Assembly (NCBI RefSeq): GCF_003336245.1
Contig: NZ_QPHM01000001.1
Location: forward strand, 1,612,001 to 1,676,000
Length of the DNA stretch: 64,000 bases
Origin: Haloplanus salinus
GTDB lineage: Archaea > Halobacteriota > Halobacteria > Halobacteriales > Haloferacaceae
Reading direction: 5' to 3'
The position numbers and the translations under genes were made by a program. The notes beneath the pieces are model-generated. The model searched no databases. It saw only the letters and a program-made list of their open reading frames with translations, and had not been told where the DNA came from. Of the stretch, positions 49,719 to 58,919 are shown in pieces. Numbering within the stretch: the stretch's first letter is position 1; every line of letters starts with the position of its first letter.

Positions 49719-50009
49719 TCTTGCTGGCTCGACACCACGATCGGCGACAAATTGCCACACGTCCGCCGGTCAGTCGTCATCGAAGGGACGACGGCCCAGA
49801 CCCGCATCCACAGTATGATCGAACTCCAAACTGCTCGGAATCCTCGCCCGCCGCGGTCAACGTGTAAATATGCGTTTTGGAGAGTCACACGACCGAACGC
49901 ACTACCGTAGCCTTTGTAAGTCATCGCACACCCGATCGCACGCAGTCTGGCGATCAGGTGTGCAAACAGTTCCAAACGGGACTATCGCTCGGGATCGTCC
50001 AGCGTATGG
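49719..50009. other. Region between hydantoinase relic and tRNA-Met repeats, no recognised gene
   Basis: No frame here shows family-like blocks. A TATA-like gtgtaaatatgcg (49860-49872) stands out in an otherwise GC-rich setting. Frames running from here through the repeats are translations of tRNA 3'-end copies and are not genes. Confidence 0.45.
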
Positions 50010-50032
50010 ATGGGCCCTGCCGGATTCGAACC
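50010..50032 (-). repeat. Copy 1 of the tRNA-Met 3' end
   Basis: The 23 bases atgggccctgccggattcga + acc are identical to the last 22 bases of the tRNA-Met gene at 50229-50250 plus one flanking base. The rest of the tRNA is missing. It has the form of an attachment-site duplication. Confidence 0.75.
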
Positions 50033-50114
50033 GCGCGGACGTCGCTTCGCTCGTCCGCTGGGCTCGAACCGGCAGAACGGACGATTCCCTGCTCAGTTCG
50101 TTCGCAGAAAATCG

Positions 50115-50137
50115 ATGGGCCCTGCCGGATTCGAACC
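50115..50137 (-). repeat. Copy 2 of the tRNA-Met 3' end
   Basis: A second exact 23-base copy, 105 bases from copy 1 and 113 bases from the tRNA's own 3' end. Between the copies lie GC-rich palindromic stretches of the cgcttcgctcg type and imperfect T-loop-like pieces (ggctcgaaccggcag, gattcgaatccgcag). Confidence 0.75.
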
Positions 50138-50228
50138 TCGGTCGTTCCGCTCGCTCCGCTCGCTCCACTCCCTGATTCGAATCCGCAGGGGGACTCGAAC
50201 ACGCCTCGCTGACGCTCGGCGGTTCTCA

Positions 50229-50334
50229 TGGGCCCTGCCGGATTCGAACCAGCGATCACCCGGTGTCCCATGCCCGCGACACGTATCGCGCCCAGTATGA
50301 GCCGGGGGCTTTAACCAGACTAAGCTAAGGGCCC
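50229..50334 (-). tRNA. tRNA-Met(CAT), elongator type, with 31-nt intron
   Basis: Read on the minus strand the gene has acceptor stem GGGCCCT/AGGGCCC, D arm GCTT...AAGC, anticodon stem CCCGG/CCGGG with loop CTCATA-A and T arm GCTGG-TTCGAAT-CCGGC, discriminator A. The anticodon CAT with this elongator-type body indicates Met; a C34-modified Ile tRNA is excluded only by overall resemblance. A 31-nt intron (50265-50295) sits after position 37, where archaeal introns with a bulge-helix-bulge are found. CCA is not encoded; the cca gene is at 52641. Confidence 0.88.
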
Positions 50335-52640: not shown

Positions 52641-53990
52641 ATGAGCGACTTCGAGGCCGTCGCCGCGCGCGTGGCCGACCGCGTGACCCCGAGCGCCGCC
52701 GAGCGCGAACGACTCCGGGCGGCCGTCGACGCCCTGACCGCCCGGGTCCACGACGCCATCGCCGACCTTCCAGTCGATGCCGACGTCGTCCAGGTCGGCT
52801 CGACGGCCCGCGGCACGTGGCTCGCCGACGACCGCGATATCGACCTCTTCGTCCGGTTCCCGGCCACTCTCGACCGCGCCGACTTGGAGCGCTACGGACT
52901 CGCCGTCGGCCGCGCCGTCCTCCCCGACGGCCACGAGGAGTACGCGGAACACCCCTACGTCACCGGCGAGAGTCGCGGGTTCGACGTCGACCTCGTCCCC
53001 TGTTACGACGTGGCCGACGCGACGGCCATCCAGTCGGCGGTCGACCGCACTCCCTTCCACGACGCCTACCTGCAGGATCGACTCGACGACGCCCTCGCCC
53101 GCGACGTGCGCCTGTTCAAGGCCTTCCTCACCGGCATCGGCGCCTACGGGAGCGACCTCCGCACTCGGGGGTTCTCCGGCTATCTCTCCGAACTCCTCGT
53201 GCTCGAGTACGGTGGCTTCGAACCGCTCCTCCGCGCCGCCGCGGACTGGCACCCGCCGGTCCGCTTCGACCCCGAAGGTCACGGGACGGGGACGTTCGAC
53301 GACCCGCTCGTCGTCGTCGACCCGACCGACCCCGAGCGCAACGTCGCCGCCGTCTGCTCGCCCGCGAACGTCGCCCGCCTCCAGCACTACGCCCGCGACC
53401 TGCTCGCCGACCCCCGCGAGGACCGCTTCGTCGCGAGCGATCCCGCCCCCGTCGACGCCGACGCCGTCCGGACGCATCTCGACCGCCGGGGAACGACGCC
53501 CGTCGCCGTCGTCTTCGAGACCCCCGACATCGTCGACGATCAGCTCTACCCCCAGCTCCGCAAGTCGCTCCACGGGGTCGCGGACGAACTCGACCGCCGG
53601 GGCTTCGAGCCGCTTCGCTCGGCGACCTTTGCCGCCGACCGCGCCGTCCTTCTCGTCGAACTCGCCGTCGGCGAACTCGCGAGCGTGGAGCGTCATGCCG
53701 GCCCACCGGTCCACGTCCGCGAGCACGCGATCGGTTTCTACGACGCCTACGCCGACCGCGACGTGTACGGCCCCTTCCTCGACGGCGATCGCTACGTCGT
53801 CGAACGGGAGCGCGAGTTCACGACGCCGGCCGGGGTCCTCGAGAGCGACGCCCTCTTCGACGTGGCCCTCGGCGCCCACGTCGAGACGGCGCTCGACGAC
53901 GGCTACGACCTGCTGGTCGGCGACGAGATAGCGGCTCTCGCCGACGACTTCGGCGTCCCACTCGCTCGGTACTTCGAGCCGACGCCTTAG
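52641..53990 (+). CDS. cca: CCA tRNA nucleotidyltransferase, archaeal class I
   Basis: The enzyme adds or repairs the 3' CCA of tRNAs, needed here because none of the tRNA genes encodes it. The 449-residue length is typical. The nucleotidyltransferase signature G-S-T-A-R-G-T-W (53-60) is followed by D-I-D (Asp 66 and 68) and a third carboxylate in 'F-D-V-D-L-V-P'. Further class I blocks include 'D-V-R-L-F-K-A-F-L-T-G-I-G-A-Y-G' and 'G-F-S-G-Y-L-S-E-L-L'. The stop overlaps the convergent HDAC gene by four bases. Confidence 0.95.
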   Translation: MSDFEAVAARVADRVTPSAAERERLRAAVDALTARVHDAIADLPVDADVVQVGSTARGTWLADDRDIDLFVRFPATLDRADLERYGLAVGRAVLPDGHEEYAEHPYVTGESRGFDVDLVPCYDVADATAIQSAVDRTPFHDAYLQDRLDDALARDVRLFKAFLTGIGAYGSDLRTRGFSGYLSELLVLEYGGFEPLLRAAADWHPPVRFDPEGHGTGTFDDPLVVVDPTDPERNVAAVCSPANVARLQHYARDLLADPREDRFVASDPAPVDADAVRTHLDRRGTTPVAVVFETPDIVDDQLYPQLRKSLHGVADELDRRGFEPLRSATFAADRAVLLVELAVGELASVERHAGPPVHVREHAIGFYDAYADRDVYGPFLDGDRYVVEREREFTTPAGVLESDALFDVALGAHVETALDDGYDLLVGDEIAALADDFGVPLARYFEPTP

Positions 53991-54994
53991 TCCAGCCCGT
54001 GGATCGCCCGCACTTCGTCGAGTAGTTCCGCCGTCTCGTCGGTCGGGTCGCCGTCGTCCTCGACCGGCGCCCGACCGTCGAACGTCTCGTGGATCGTCGC
54101 GATGCTCTCGGAGAGCGTGTCGAGACCGTAGCCACCTTCGAGGACGAACCCGAGGCCCGCGCCGACGTCGTCGGTCGTCCCCCGGACCCGATCGGTGAGG
54201 AGGGCGTACCCCTCGGTCGAGACGCGCATCCGCGAGATGGGGTCGTGACGGTGGGCGTCGAAGCCGGCGCTCACGAGCAGCAAGTCGGGATCGAAGCGGT
54301 CGAGGACGGGGCCGACCGCCCGCTCGTACACCCGCAGGTAGTCCGCGTCCCCCGCCCCGGCACGGAGCGGGACGTTGAGGGTCGTCCCCGAACCCGACCC
54401 GTCCCCCGTCTCCTCGACATCGCCGGTCCCCGGGTACAGCCCCTGTTCGTGGACCGACAGGTAACACACGTCGTCGCGGTCGTAGAAGAGGTCCTGCGTG
54501 CCGTTGCCGTGGTGGACGTCCCAGTCGAAAATCGCCACACGGTCGGCGTCGCCGGCGTCGATGACCGACTGGGCCGCGACGGCCGCGTTGTTGAAGAAAC
54601 AGAAGCCCATCGCGTCGGCTTCGACGGCGTGGTGGCCCGGGGGCCGTCCGAGCGCGAACGGGGTTTCGCGCCCCTCGTCGCCCGCGAGGGCGCGCTCGGC
54701 CGTCCACTGGGCCAGCCCGGCGCTGGTGAGGGCAGCGTCCCACGTCCCCTCGGAGGCGACGGTGTCGGGGTCCCAGTCGCCGCCGCCGTCGGCACAGAAC
54801 TCGCGGAGGTCGTCGACGTAGTCGGCGTCGTGAACGGCGGTGACGGCGTCGACCGTCGCCGGCGCGGCGTCGACGTACTCGACGCCGTGTCGACGGGCGA
54901 GCTGTTGGCGGATCGCCCGCAGGCGGTCGGCCGTCTCCGGGTGCCGAGCACCGGTGTCGTGATCGAGACAGGTTTCGCTGTAGCCGAACTGCAT
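53987..54994 (-). CDS. Histone deacetylase-family (HDAC/AcuC-like) hydrolase
   Basis: The 335-residue arginase-fold zinc enzyme retains the complete active site: 'R-P-P-G-H-H-A' (His 121-122), zinc ligands in 'F-D-W-D-V-H-H-G-N-G-T' (Asp 159, His 161) and 'V-S-A-G-F-D-A-H', and 'E-G-G-Y' near the end. It should remove acyl groups from lysine or a small amide. The ATG directly abuts the TAG of the histone gene, so both are made from one mRNA. This makes the neighbouring histone a natural candidate substrate, though acetoin- or polyamine-type substrates remain possible. Confidence 0.93.
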   Translation of the reverse strand: MQFGYSETCLDHDTGARHPETADRLRAIRQQLARRHGVEYVDAAPATVDAVTAVHDADYVDDLREFCADGGGDWDPDTVASEGTWDAALTSAGLAQWTAERALAGDEGRETPFALGRPPGHHAVEADAMGFCFFNNAAVAAQSVIDAGDADRVAIFDWDVHHGNGTQDLFYDRDDVCYLSVHEQGLYPGTGDVEETGDGSGSGTTLNVPLRAGAGDADYLRVYERAVGPVLDRFDPDLLLVSAGFDAHRHDPISRMRVSTEGYALLTDRVRGTTDDVGAGLGFVLEGGYGLDTLSESIATIHETFDGRAPVEDDGDPTDETAELLDEVRAIHGLD

Positions 54995-55426
54995 CTATTC
55001 GAAGAGCGCGAAGTACGTCTCGATGTCCTCTGCCTGGATGGTTCGCCGGTCGGCGTGGTTGGCGAGGGTCGTCGCCGCGGCGGCGACGTTGTCGGCGTAA
55101 TCCTCCAGGATGTCGGCGAGCGCGATCCGCGCGTCCATCGAGACGCGGTAGTGCCCGTCGATTTCGAGGCGAGCGATCCGATCGACCGGCGCCACTGGGA
55201 GTTCGAGGCCGTCCCGGTCGACCACCTGCTCGACGCCGAAGTCGGCGGCCATCAGCGTCTTCCGCCCGTCCGCCGTCGCCCGCTCGGCGGCGCCGACGGC
55301 GAGGTCCGCCCCGTGGCGCTGGATGCGGCGGGCGAGTTCCTCCGCCGCACCCGCGCTTACCCGCAGGTCACCCGCGTTCCGACGGATGATCGTGTCTACC
55401 GGGGCGAACGGTAACTCGACACTCAT
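54995..55426 (-). CDS. hstA: Archaeal histone, fused doublet
   Basis: The 143-residue protein contains two tandem histone folds (about 1-70 and 75-143), each starting with a P-(F/V)-A-P-V-D-x-I motif and ending in a D-x-x-T-L/I-x-A-x-D helix ('R-K-T-L-M-A-A-D-F' and 'R-R-T-I-Q-A-E-D-I'). It is the haloarchaeal end-to-end doublet that mimics a histone dimer. It is acidic, with few lysines, and has no eukaryote-like basic tail. The start ATG 55426 lies about 25 nt from the TATA box. It is followed without a gap by the HDAC gene. Confidence 0.96.
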   Translation of the reverse strand: MSVELPFAPVDTIIRRNAGDLRVSAGAAEELARRIQRHGADLAVGAAERATADGRKTLMAADFGVEQVVDRDGLELPVAPVDRIARLEIDGHYRVSMDARIALADILEDYADNVAAAATTLANHADRRTIQAEDIETYFALFE

Positions 55427-55449: not shown

Positions 55450-55459
55450 GTATAATCCT
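55450..55459 (-). promoter_or_regulatory. TATA element of the histone-HDAC operon
   Basis: On the minus strand aggattatac lies 24-33 nt upstream of the histone ATG, predicting a leaderless transcript. Confidence 0.65.
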
Positions 55460-55539
55460 TTCCGTCGGTGCGGCGACGCACGCTCGCTCGGCGCCCTCGT
55501 CCCGCTCCATCGAACGTCCCGACCCCGGTTTACCGCCGA

Positions 55540-55682: not shown

Positions 55683-57284
55683 ATGACAGACGACTTCGAA
55701 CTCTCGCGGCGGAAGGCACTCGCCGCGCTCGGCACCATCGGCGTCGCCTCGGCTGGCGCCGGTCTCGGCACGAGCGCGTACTTCAGCGATCAGGAAACGT
55801 TCGAGAACAACTCGCTCACGGCCGGCGAACTGGATATGCACATCGGCTGGGAGTCACACTACTCCGACTGGTCGCCCGACGAGGACGACGGTCTCGAAGG
55901 CGACGTCACCATGGGCAACGATCAGCCGGTCGGGCTTCCGACGCAGAACTCGTCGCTGATCAGCGTCGCCAACACCTCCGACGCCCAGCAGTTCCTGAAC
56001 AACACCGAGGTCGATCAGTTCCCCAACGGGACGACCACGTTCGACGACGCGGCGGAGATGAACGGCTGTGACGTACTCGCGGACGGCGCCGACGAGAGTC
56101 CGGCCGTCATCGACCTCGACGACGTCAAACCGGGCGACTTCGGTGAAGTGACGTTCAGCTTCGCGCTGTGTGACAATCCGGGGTTCGTCTGGATGAACGG
56201 TGGGCTCGTCGAGGCCCGCGAGAACGGCCTCACCGAGCCCGAGGCCGACGACCCCGACGAGGAGGGACCGGAAGACGAGGTTTCGGACGACGTGGAGACC
56301 AGCCAGGTCGAACTCCTCGACGAGGTTCGGACTGCACTCTGGTACGACGACGGCGACAACCTGCAGGAAGGGGACGGCACCGTGACTGGCGGTGCTGCGG
56401 ACGTCGTCATCGTCGCCGACGGTTCCGGTTCCGTGACGAATGACTCGACCAAGTTCCAAGCGCTTCAGGACGGTGCGGAAGCGCTCGTCGACGCCGTCGG
56501 TAGCAACGTCAATGTCGGGTTCGTCCCGTTCTCAAACAGTGCCAACGTCGTCTCGTCACTCACGGACAGCAAGAGTACCACGAAAACGGAAATCCAAGAC
56601 GACAGTAATTACCCCGGTGGTGGGACGGACATCGGTGACGGAATCGATACGGGACAGAACCACCTCACCGGCCCAGCGGGTCGCTCCGGTGTCGACAAGG
56701 TGCTCGTCGTGCTGACCAATGGCGTATCCTCCAGCGGTCGGTCGGAGTCGACGGCCGCCAAGGACGCCGGCACGACCATCTACGGCATCGCGTACGGTGA
56801 CGGGGCGGATCAGAACCTGATCGAAGACATCTCCAGCCCGCCGAAAACCGACGATGGTTCGATCGACGATCAGGACGAGTTCGCCTTTATCGCCGACCAG
56901 ACCGACATCAGCTCCGTGTTCAGCGGCATCGGCGGGCAGATTTCGGTCGGCGGCGAAACGGTGTTCTTCGAGGGCTCGCTCCGCGAGGCGCTCATCGAAC
57001 TCGATCCCGACACGGCGGCCGATCGGAATCAGGGCATCCCACTCGCAGGAGACATCTCGGCGGAGGCCGGTGGCGGCACCGGCCGGAACTGTTTCAGTGG
57101 CGGTGGGCTCGTCCACTCCGTCGGCTTCGCGTGGTGGCTCCCGACCAACCACGCTAACGAGATACAGGGTGACTCCGTCAGCTTCGACCTCGGGTTCTAC
57201 ACGGAGCAGTGCCGGCACAACGACGGCGAAGGGATGAACAACGCGGGCGTCGCGGTCAACCAGACCGACGACGACGCGACGTGA
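55683..57284 (+). CDS. Secreted TasA/SipW-type protein with inserted vWA domain
   Basis: The 533-residue protein starts with a SipW-type signal ('L-S-R-R-K-A-L-A-A-L-G-T-I-G' ... 'S-A-Y-F-S-D-Q-E'), as in TasA/CalY-like surface proteins. The beta-rich TasA-like part covers residues 40-235 and resumes at about 420-533 ('V-F-F-E-G-S-L-R-E-A-L'). Between them a von Willebrand A domain is inserted (about 236-417) with MIDAS D-G-S-G-S and the metal Thr in G-G-G-T-D-I-G. Six or so Cys are present in the TasA part. It is likely exported and may form or bind surface fibres through metal-dependent adhesion; that is inference. Confidence 0.85.
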   Translation: MTDDFELSRRKALAALGTIGVASAGAGLGTSAYFSDQETFENNSLTAGELDMHIGWESHYSDWSPDEDDGLEGDVTMGNDQPVGLPTQNSSLISVANTSDAQQFLNNTEVDQFPNGTTTFDDAAEMNGCDVLADGADESPAVIDLDDVKPGDFGEVTFSFALCDNPGFVWMNGGLVEARENGLTEPEADDPDEEGPEDEVSDDVETSQVELLDEVRTALWYDDGDNLQEGDGTVTGGAADVVIVADGSGSVTNDSTKFQALQDGAEALVDAVGSNVNVGFVPFSNSANVVSSLTDSKSTTKTEIQDDSNYPGGGTDIGDGIDTGQNHLTGPAGRSGVDKVLVVLTNGVSSSGRSESTAAKDAGTTIYGIAYGDGADQNLIEDISSPPKTDDGSIDDQDEFAFIADQTDISSVFSGIGGQISVGGETVFFEGSLREALIELDPDTAADRNQGIPLAGDISAEAGGGTGRNCFSGGGLVHSVGFAWWLPTNHANEIQGDSVSFDLGFYTEQCRHNDGEGMNNAGVAVNQTDDDAT

Positions 57285-57356: not shown

Positions 57357-58790
57357 TCAGTACACCTCGTCCGCGTCGATCCGCCCGTCGTGTATCGGCC
57401 CGCGGACCGTCACTTCCTCACCCAGTCGCAGGTCGGCGTCCGTCTCCACGCTCCGCGTCTTCGTCCCGTCGTCGAGAACGACCGGGTTGCCCGCTTGGAC
57501 GACCGTCCCGGTGAACTGGACGGTGTCACCGTCGATGGGGCCGGTGTCGGCCGTCGCCGTCTCGGTGTCCCCACCGTCGTCGCCGAACGCGTCGAGGCCG
57601 GGACTGCCGCTCCCGCCTCGATCTCCCGAACTCGCCGCCGACGTGGCGGACGCCCCGTCGGTTCCCGCCGCGTCCGCCGGCGGATCGGTCACCGTCACCG
57701 TCGCCCGCCACCCCGCGGAGGCCTCCAGGTCGTCCTGCCATCCCTCCTGAATCTCGGCGTCGGTGACGACGACGTAGTCCGCGAGGTCGATATCGAGGTC
57801 CGCCTTCTCACCCCAGAGCGCCACCCGGATGTCGCCCGTTTCGTCCTTGATCCGGACGTTTCGCACCTGTCCCTCCGAGCCGTCGTCGCGGTCGAACGTC
57901 CGCTTCGGGTCCGTCTCGATGACGCCGCCCGCGATGTCCGCGTCCGTTCCGAGTTCCAGGTCGGTGACGTCGGTCGTCTCGGGGTCGTACGCCACGTCAT
58001 CGTCGACCTCCTCGACCGCGCCCCGGGAGCCGACGTGGAGTTCGAGGTCGCCGTCGCGCTCCCGGACGTAGCCGTCGACGACTTCGACCGACGTGCCGGC
58101 GTCCAGTTCCTCGGCCCGGTCGGCCTTCTCGTCCCACAGCGTCACCCGAACACGCCCCGTCTCGTCGCCGAGGGTCAGGTTGGCGACGCGACCCTCGCTG
58201 CCGTCGTCGCGGTCGAACGTCCGCACCGTATCCGTCGCCAACACCAGCCCCCGTAGATTCACGTCCGAGAGGCCGAGCGAGAGGTCGTCGACGCGGTAGG
58301 TGTCCTGCACCTGGACGTCCACTTCGGCGTCCTCGTCGACTTCCGCCTGATCGACGCTCACCTCGACGCCGCTGTAGCCCTCCTGTGGCCGGCCCTTGAT
58401 CCGGAGGACGTCGCCCACTTCGAGTTCGCCGTCGGCGACGGACTGGGCCATGCGGTCCCAGAAGGAGATGCGGACCTGCCCCGTCTCGTCGGCCACCTCG
58501 ACGTTGATGACGCGTCCCTCGTCCTCGCCGTCGTCGCCGTCGCGTTCGAACGTCCGCAGGTCGCCGACGCCGACCACCTTCGCGAGGAACTTCACCTCGT
58601 CCATCCCGGGGGCGATGTCGGCGACGCCGTTCACCTCCTCGTCTTCGAGTTCGTGGGCGATGAGCATGGCCGCCGTCTCCTCGTCGGCCAGCCCCCCCAT
58701 CTGCTCGACCTTGTCGTGGACGGCGGCCTCGAACTCCTCGAACTCCACGTCCGTGTCGAGGTCCTCGTACACGTCCTCGATTACGCCCAT
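57357..58790 (-). CDS. rpaC: RPA-like single-stranded DNA-binding protein with repeated OB folds (RpaC-like)
   Basis: The 477-residue protein has a short helical N-terminus and then OB folds at about residues 65-150, 175-260 and 283-370. The repeats are very alike ('T-F-x-R-D-D-G-S-E-G-x-V', 'D-E-T-G-x-(V/I)-R-V-x-(L/F)-W'). A Ser/Gly/Asp-rich linker and a further small OB-like domain (about 425-477) follow. This is the haloarchaeal RpaC-type layout; RPA protects ssDNA in replication and repair. There is no zinc finger. ATG 58790 (M-G-V-I-E-D) is the family start. Confidence 0.88.
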   Translation of the reverse strand: MGVIEDVYEDLDTDVEFEEFEAAVHDKVEQMGGLADEETAAMLIAHELEDEEVNGVADIAPGMDEVKFLAKVVGVGDLRTFERDGDDGEDEGRVINVEVADETGQVRISFWDRMAQSVADGELEVGDVLRIKGRPQEGYSGVEVSVDQAEVDEDAEVDVQVQDTYRVDDLSLGLSDVNLRGLVLATDTVRTFDRDDGSEGRVANLTLGDETGRVRVTLWDEKADRAEELDAGTSVEVVDGYVRERDGDLELHVGSRGAVEEVDDDVAYDPETTDVTDLELGTDADIAGGVIETDPKRTFDRDDGSEGQVRNVRIKDETGDIRVALWGEKADLDIDLADYVVVTDAEIQEGWQDDLEASAGWRATVTVTDPPADAAGTDGASATSAASSGDRGGSGSPGLDAFGDDGGDTETATADTGPIDGDTVQFTGTVVQAGNPVVLDDGTKTRSVETDADLRLGEEVTVRGPIHDGRIDADEVY

Positions 58791-58919
58791 AGTACCGTGC
58801 ATCAGGTGAACGCTCCGGTTAAGCGTTGTCCTTGGCGAAACGCTGCGCCGCTGTCGGCCGATTTCGTCCGTCGTCGACGGTCGCTCACACCCAGCGCTGT
58901 GGCGGCTTCGTACATGAAC

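Follow-up and report, generated by a model that had tools for sequence, protein, structure and literature searches.

The window, by which we mean the whole stretch of 64,000 nucleotides of Haloplanus salinus DNA that was analysed, carries a gene for an acidic histone followed at once, on the same strand, by a gene for an enzyme of the histone deacetylase (HDAC) family. The features of the locus that enter the discussion are these:

52641..53990, (+) strand: CCA tRNA nucleotidyltransferase gene, convergent with the HDAC gene and overlapping the 3′ end of the latter by 4 nt
53987..54994, (-) strand: HDAC-family gene (PF00850), HdaI-type and zinc-dependent, 335 aa, no lysines
54994-54992, (-) strand: start codon ATG of the HDAC gene
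54992..54997, (-) strand: junction of histone TAG and HDAC ATG, gap exactly 0 nt
54997-54995, (-) strand: stop codon TAG of the histone gene
54995..55426, (-) strand: acidic doublet histone gene, 143 aa, calculated pI 4.7 (4.71), one lysine (K56)
55259..55261, (-) strand: AAG codon of K56, the histone's only lysine, in the R-K-T motif of the first histone fold
55452..55455, (-) strand: TATA-like element, TTAT here, at -29 to -26 from the histone ATG
55459..55463, (-) strand: BRE-like GGAAA, at -37 to -33 from the histone ATG
55683..57284, (+) strand: gene for a VWA-domain protein, between the RPA gene and the histone gene
57357..58802, (-) strand: gene for an RPA-type single-stranded DNA-binding protein

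In a domain search the histone was matched by PF00808 in two stretches (E 4.4e-24) and is thus a doublet. With two folds, 143 aa and a pI of 4.71 it fits the cluster 3 acidic doublets of archaea, for which medians of 143 aa and pI 4.7 are given (PMC13260811). The match of the enzyme to PF00850 is nearly full length (model positions 1-295 of 298; E 1.6e-86; 290.8 bits against a curated cut-off of 27.9). The first-pass annotation had placed the histone TAG directly against the HDAC ATG, and it was right in both coordinates and description. The arrangement itself is already known: in Haloferax volcanii hdaI (Hvo_0522) overlaps the histone gene and is co-transcribed with it, according to a 2010 review (PMC2946573).

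The H. volcanii locus resembles that of the window in several respects. There too a doublet histone and an HDAC are reported to be encoded by overlapping, co-transcribed genes, and serial locus tags are borne by RPA2, histone and HdaI: the essential RPA2 is HVO_0519 (PMC7776575) and the histone HstA is HVO_0520 (PMC10128011). The same RPA-histone-HDAC order is seen in Halobacterium salinarum and in other Haloferax species. The window differs in having the VWA-domain gene between RPA and histone, and its genome in that Sir2 was not found, whereas H. volcanii has one. The 2010 review was the one paper found to name at least two of HVO_0519, HVO_0520, HVO_0522 and hdaI.

More widely in Halobacteria, 96 of 100 six-kb loci have a relative of the RPA gene upstream of the histone and on its strand. 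The RPA-histone match distance is 52 to 310 nt in 85 of these loci and ranges overall from 52 to more than 2000 nt. The CCA gene is matched on the opposite strand in 82 of the 100, the loci being short. The VWA-domain gene of the window occupies a place where the gap is 310 nt or less in 85 of 100 loci; somewhere within the locus, a relative turned up in 2 of these 100. Further along the window there is a tRNA-family match of 106 nt (50229-50334, (-) strand) that ARAGORN did not report and that perhaps contains an intron. Beyond its 3′ end stand two 30-nt copies (50006-50035 and 50111-50140) that are 93% alike, both being 77% alike to a copy at the tRNA's own 3′ end. Such repeats could have been left behind by elements that integrate at tRNA genes.

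How general is the pair? HDAC (PF00850) and histone were each found in all 242 sampled genomes of the class. Of these, 161 were examined at the locus (L002-L161 plus the window, the other 81 being left out); 30 had been chosen for the best HDAC score, 30 for groups not yet covered, and 100 for spread over genera. Histone followed by HDAC on one strand was present in 157 of the 161, a count made up of 156 genomes with the pair in the fetched locus (the duplicate L001 being excluded) and one, G093, with the pair at another locus (L164). The junction was within -8 to +10 nt in 144 of the 156 measured; of the other 12, ten have a spacing of +13 to +40, while L109 has +158 and L035 has +605. These spacings depend on how the HDAC start was set, namely at whichever candidate codon lay closest to the homologous counterpart of the window ATG. 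In a set of 80 named loci, which overlaps in part with the 161 genomes, the HDAC is downstream of the histone in 79, in 77 of those at -4 to +9 nt. On the 156-row HDAC tree the exact spacing has changed at least 43 times, the state (close or loose) only 5 times. Since the spacing has changed so often and yet has stayed close in 144 of 156 loci, it looks maintained rather than frozen. Conservation of the pair, which the first-pass annotation had named as a check, is thus more than would be expected by chance.

Promoter-like elements are conserved as well. At -37 to -33 from the histone ATG the consensus is GGAAA (133, 96, 135, 147, and 145 of 156 loci at successive positions), and at -29 to -26 it is TTAA (133, 143, 138, and 113 of 156). 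Archaeal transcripts usually start at a set distance from the BRE and TATA elements. The fixed distance of the elements from the gene, together with that spacing, would put the transcript start at or beside the histone ATG, which suggests a leaderless two-gene mRNA made from a core promoter just before the histone. In H. volcanii, hstA together with 500 bp of the DNA before it complemented the growth defect of a ΔhstA strain, which was judged not to be polar (PMC10128011), a result consistent with a promoter lying in that interval.

For translation, too, the relevant comparison is with H. volcanii, where a spacing of -8 to +10 nt is reported to be predictive of termination-reinitiation, and where such close pairs encode subunits of a complex in 45.2% of cases, against 5.6% of wider-spaced pairs (PMC10666635). 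The window pair, at 0 nt, lies inside this range. There is good ground for termination-reinitiation at this kind of spacing in H. volcanii; in the window, ribosomes finishing the histone would restart at the touching HDAC ATG, and synthesis of the enzyme would thereby be tied to that of the histone. The operon proposed in the first-pass annotation, with a probable translational coupling, is supported by conservation of the pair, by the fixed promoter, and by the co-transcription reported for H. volcanii.

Turning to the enzyme, the active site was said at first pass to be complete, and so it is: H121/H122, D159, H161, D246, and Y289 are all present and line up with active-site residues of HDAC6 and a lysine deacylase (5zmp). 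They correspond to the His pair, the Asp/His/Asp zinc ligands and the Tyr that have catalytic roles in this family. In the PDB the enzyme is matched best by HDAC6, a lysine deacylase, and the bacterial HDAH, some polyamine deacetylases and amide hydrolases also being matched. The likeness to HDAC6-type deacetylases and HDAH extends across the catalytic domain and the aligned active-site residues; unlike them, the window enzyme is one small single-domain protein, known here from its sequence. The polyamine deacetylases HDAC10 and APAH carry an acidic gatekeeper after a GDP motif, Glu in HDAC10. The window enzyme has I253 at this gate position after the conserved DP, and Ile is found there in all 156 HDACs, in which the other aligned residues are conserved too. 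As is true of HdaI, it is encoded directly after a histone doublet.

In a separate HDAC tree the 31 operonic enzymes form one clade (SH-aLRT 100). Of the 62 rows prepared for this tree, L214 and L224 were left out because the motif filter did not extract them, and the extra copies of genomes with two or three matches were also omitted, except for the two of G093; a quick method was used and some branches are long, so that placement outside the class is weak. Some Halobacteria (L002, L004, L006, L019, and L031) have a second, distinct clade of the family, at loci with no histone match. The H. salinus genome has a single match to PF00850 and none to Sir2 (PF02146), these being the two families searched. 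Sir2 is patchy in Halobacteria: it was found in 134 of 242 genomes of the class (in one case below the curated cut-off) and not found in the remaining 108, which include all five sampled members of the window's genus. With one HDAC and no Sir2 found, the enzyme probably acts broadly, as a protein-lysine deacetylase with substrates beyond the histone.

There are exceptions to the pairing. Four of the examined genomes keep a histone without an adjacent HDAC. In two of them (G001 at L167, G007 at L166) RPA, histone, and CCA gene are retained with no HDAC match between; in the other two (G021 at L168, G217 at L165) the histone is present, and RPA, HDAC, and CCA gene went undetected over about 3.4 kb. 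All four genomes carry a single PF00850 match at another place, in a clade separate from that of the operonic enzymes, and Sir2 was found in none of them. A contig of a Halodesulfurarchaeum MAG (L235) similarly has RPA, histone, and CCA gene in order without the HDAC, the CCA match ending 7 nt after the histone match; the likeness hints that G001 and G007 may be genomes of this kind.

Outside the class, 50 genomes were selected from 163 in other classes of the phylum, and 48 of the 50 have both the HDAC and the CCA gene. In 14 of the 48, from nine families (L209-L222), the two genes face each other, either directly or at a distance of up to about 1.6 kb. Six of the 14 (four families) also have a histone on the HDAC strand, 0.8 to 4.5 kb upstream of the enzyme gene; the other eight have no histone match within 5 kb, so the ancestral role of the enzyme need not involve a histone. 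The neighborhood of HDAC and CCA gene is thus not confined to the class; the tight coupling with the histone seems to have been added in the haloarchaea.

Whether the histone itself is deacetylated is a separate matter. Its one lysine, K56, is invariant in 156 of 156 histones of the class, and the corresponding motif in the second fold is RRT rather than R-K-T, at 97% or more per position in the same 156; 41 of 157 rows (duplicate included) are single-lysine histones. The invariance was considered as evidence of acetylation, and this idea had to be rejected, because K56 is kept where there is no adjacent enzyme and in most other archaeal histones examined: R-K-T is found in loci L164-L168, four of which are without adjacent HDAC, and, among 38 readable outside-class histones, in 36, the other two having R-R-T. 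(This control started from 40 selected loci, several near-identical, of which 38 were readable by script; L207, with R-K-T, was read by eye.) By comparison with HMfB, K56 probably contacts DNA and is incidentally the only possible acetylation site here. Reversible acylation of the histone, as put forward in the first-pass annotation, thus has one lysine available to it; the invariance of this lysine is not diagnostic, and four examined genomes keep both histone and K56 with no HDAC alongside. The histone is a possible substrate of the enzyme.

Published work bears on this point from several sides. The 2010 review considers the histone to be reasonably assumed one substrate of HdaI, and states that a deletion of hdaI was unobtainable and the gene reported essential (PMC2946573). 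The histone of H. volcanii, on the other hand, is dispensable (PMC10128011). If both hold, histone deacetylation is not the sole vital role of HdaI there, unless an acetylated histone is harmful; the dispensability counts against the acylation reading. Some caution over the essentiality is suggested by another claim of this kind, the synthetic lethality of elp3 and pat2, which was not reproduced in 2025 (PMC12323606). Precedent in archaea goes both ways: a search for histone acetylation in M. jannaschii and M. acetivorans found none (PMC2946573), and acetylated histones are reported from Thermococcus gammatolerans, going by the title of a cited work. We found no precedent from a haloarchaeon, and the main text of the SILAC acetylome paper on H. 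volcanii does not name hstA or HVO_0520. Glycerol kinase and a ferredoxin are among the haloarchaeal acetylation targets that have been named (PMC12853182, PMC12607858, PMC2946573). A comparable system is known from Sulfolobus, where Alba is a DNA-bound chromatin protein whose lysine acetylation, governed by Pat and Sir2, alters DNA binding (PMC2946573). It differs from the window pair in the DNA-binding protein and in using an unrelated, NAD-dependent deacetylase. The Alba system is not known to be a coupled gene pair.

In our preferred view, to which we lean somewhat, the pair is expressed from a promoter just before the histone as a coupled, probably leaderless two-gene mRNA, and its product HdaI would be a zinc-dependent deacetylase of protein lysines. 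It would attend to the acetylome at large and have the histone as an associate too, either by deacetylating K56 or by using the histone as a DNA partner. Leaderless start, reinitiation, deacetylase activity, broad substrates, and histone partnership are here inferred. The enzyme might alternatively be a general deacetylase and nothing else, whose substrates are metabolic and other proteins and for which the histone is neither target nor partner, the pairing being a convenience of co-expression. Several observations would suit this: the genome yielded one HDAC and no Sir2, and Sir2 was not found in 108 of the 242 genomes of the class; the haloarchaeal targets named in the literature include glycerol kinase and a ferredoxin; the histone offers one lysine only; and hdaI is reported essential when hstA is not. 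We think it rather unlikely; it leaves unexplained why close spacing to the histone specifically was kept through at least 43 junction changes. A histone that serves as targeting subunit, bringing the enzyme to DNA-bound targets such as RPA or transcription factors as a partner and not as a substrate, has about the same doubtful standing. In its favor are the enrichment of complex subunits among close pairs in H. volcanii (PMC10666635), the RPA gene upstream in 96 of 100 loci, and the single lysine, together with the described scarcity of haloarchaeal histones and the infrequent binding peaks of HpyA (PMC10128011, PMC10626798). A read-through fusion of histone and HDAC was modeled with AlphaFold (alignment A2, 48 similar rows, no control fold), and confident docking of the two is absent from the model; as a weak test, this speaks against the idea, and against the partnership in our preferred view as well. 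The mean pLDDT was 78.9 and pTM 0.67, with the junction at low confidence, scores that we judge to be about those of two separately placed domains.

It is improbable that the pair persists merely because the order of RPA, histone, HDAC, and CCA gene is old. The RPA and CCA neighbors are conserved too, and 6 of the 48 outside-class genomes having HDAC and CCA gene keep these two and a histone no more than several kb apart. However, the RPA-histone distance has been free to vary from 52 to more than 2000 nt when the histone-HDAC junction has stayed within -8 to +10 nt in 144 of 156 loci. Least probable is a small-molecule deacetylase, such as an acetylpolyamine amidohydrolase. Polyamine deacetylases and amide hydrolases do belong to PF00850, and the window enzyme has some of them as PDB matches, but the best matches are HDAC6, a lysine deacylase, and HDAH, and the invariant Ile after DP is unlike the Glu gatekeeper of HDAC10.

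Returning to the view that HdaI is a general deacetylase which also works with the histone, a functional link between the two, as proposed at first pass, is likely. The part that concerns acylation of the histone itself is possible rather than demonstrated. To the published pair the present analysis adds, as judged from a non-exhaustive literature search, the maintained spacing, the fixed promoter elements, the RPA neighbor, the cases of loss, and the single-lysine setting. A more specific scheme, which we consider speculative, is a one-site switch, in which these tail-less acidic histones would be acetylated at the loop lysine K56 and coupled translation would make the eraser along with the histone. 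Each batch of histone would then arrive with its own deacetylase, and genomes of the Halodesulfurarchaeum type, which have lost the eraser and kept the histone, would be a natural experiment. Given a single histone lysine, and a genome in which one HDAC was found and Sir2 was not, much of the question of histone acetylation could be decided with one peptide and one enzyme. At stake is the reversible acetylation of haloarchaeal histones, for which genomes with the same neighborhood and without the HDAC provide a built-in control.
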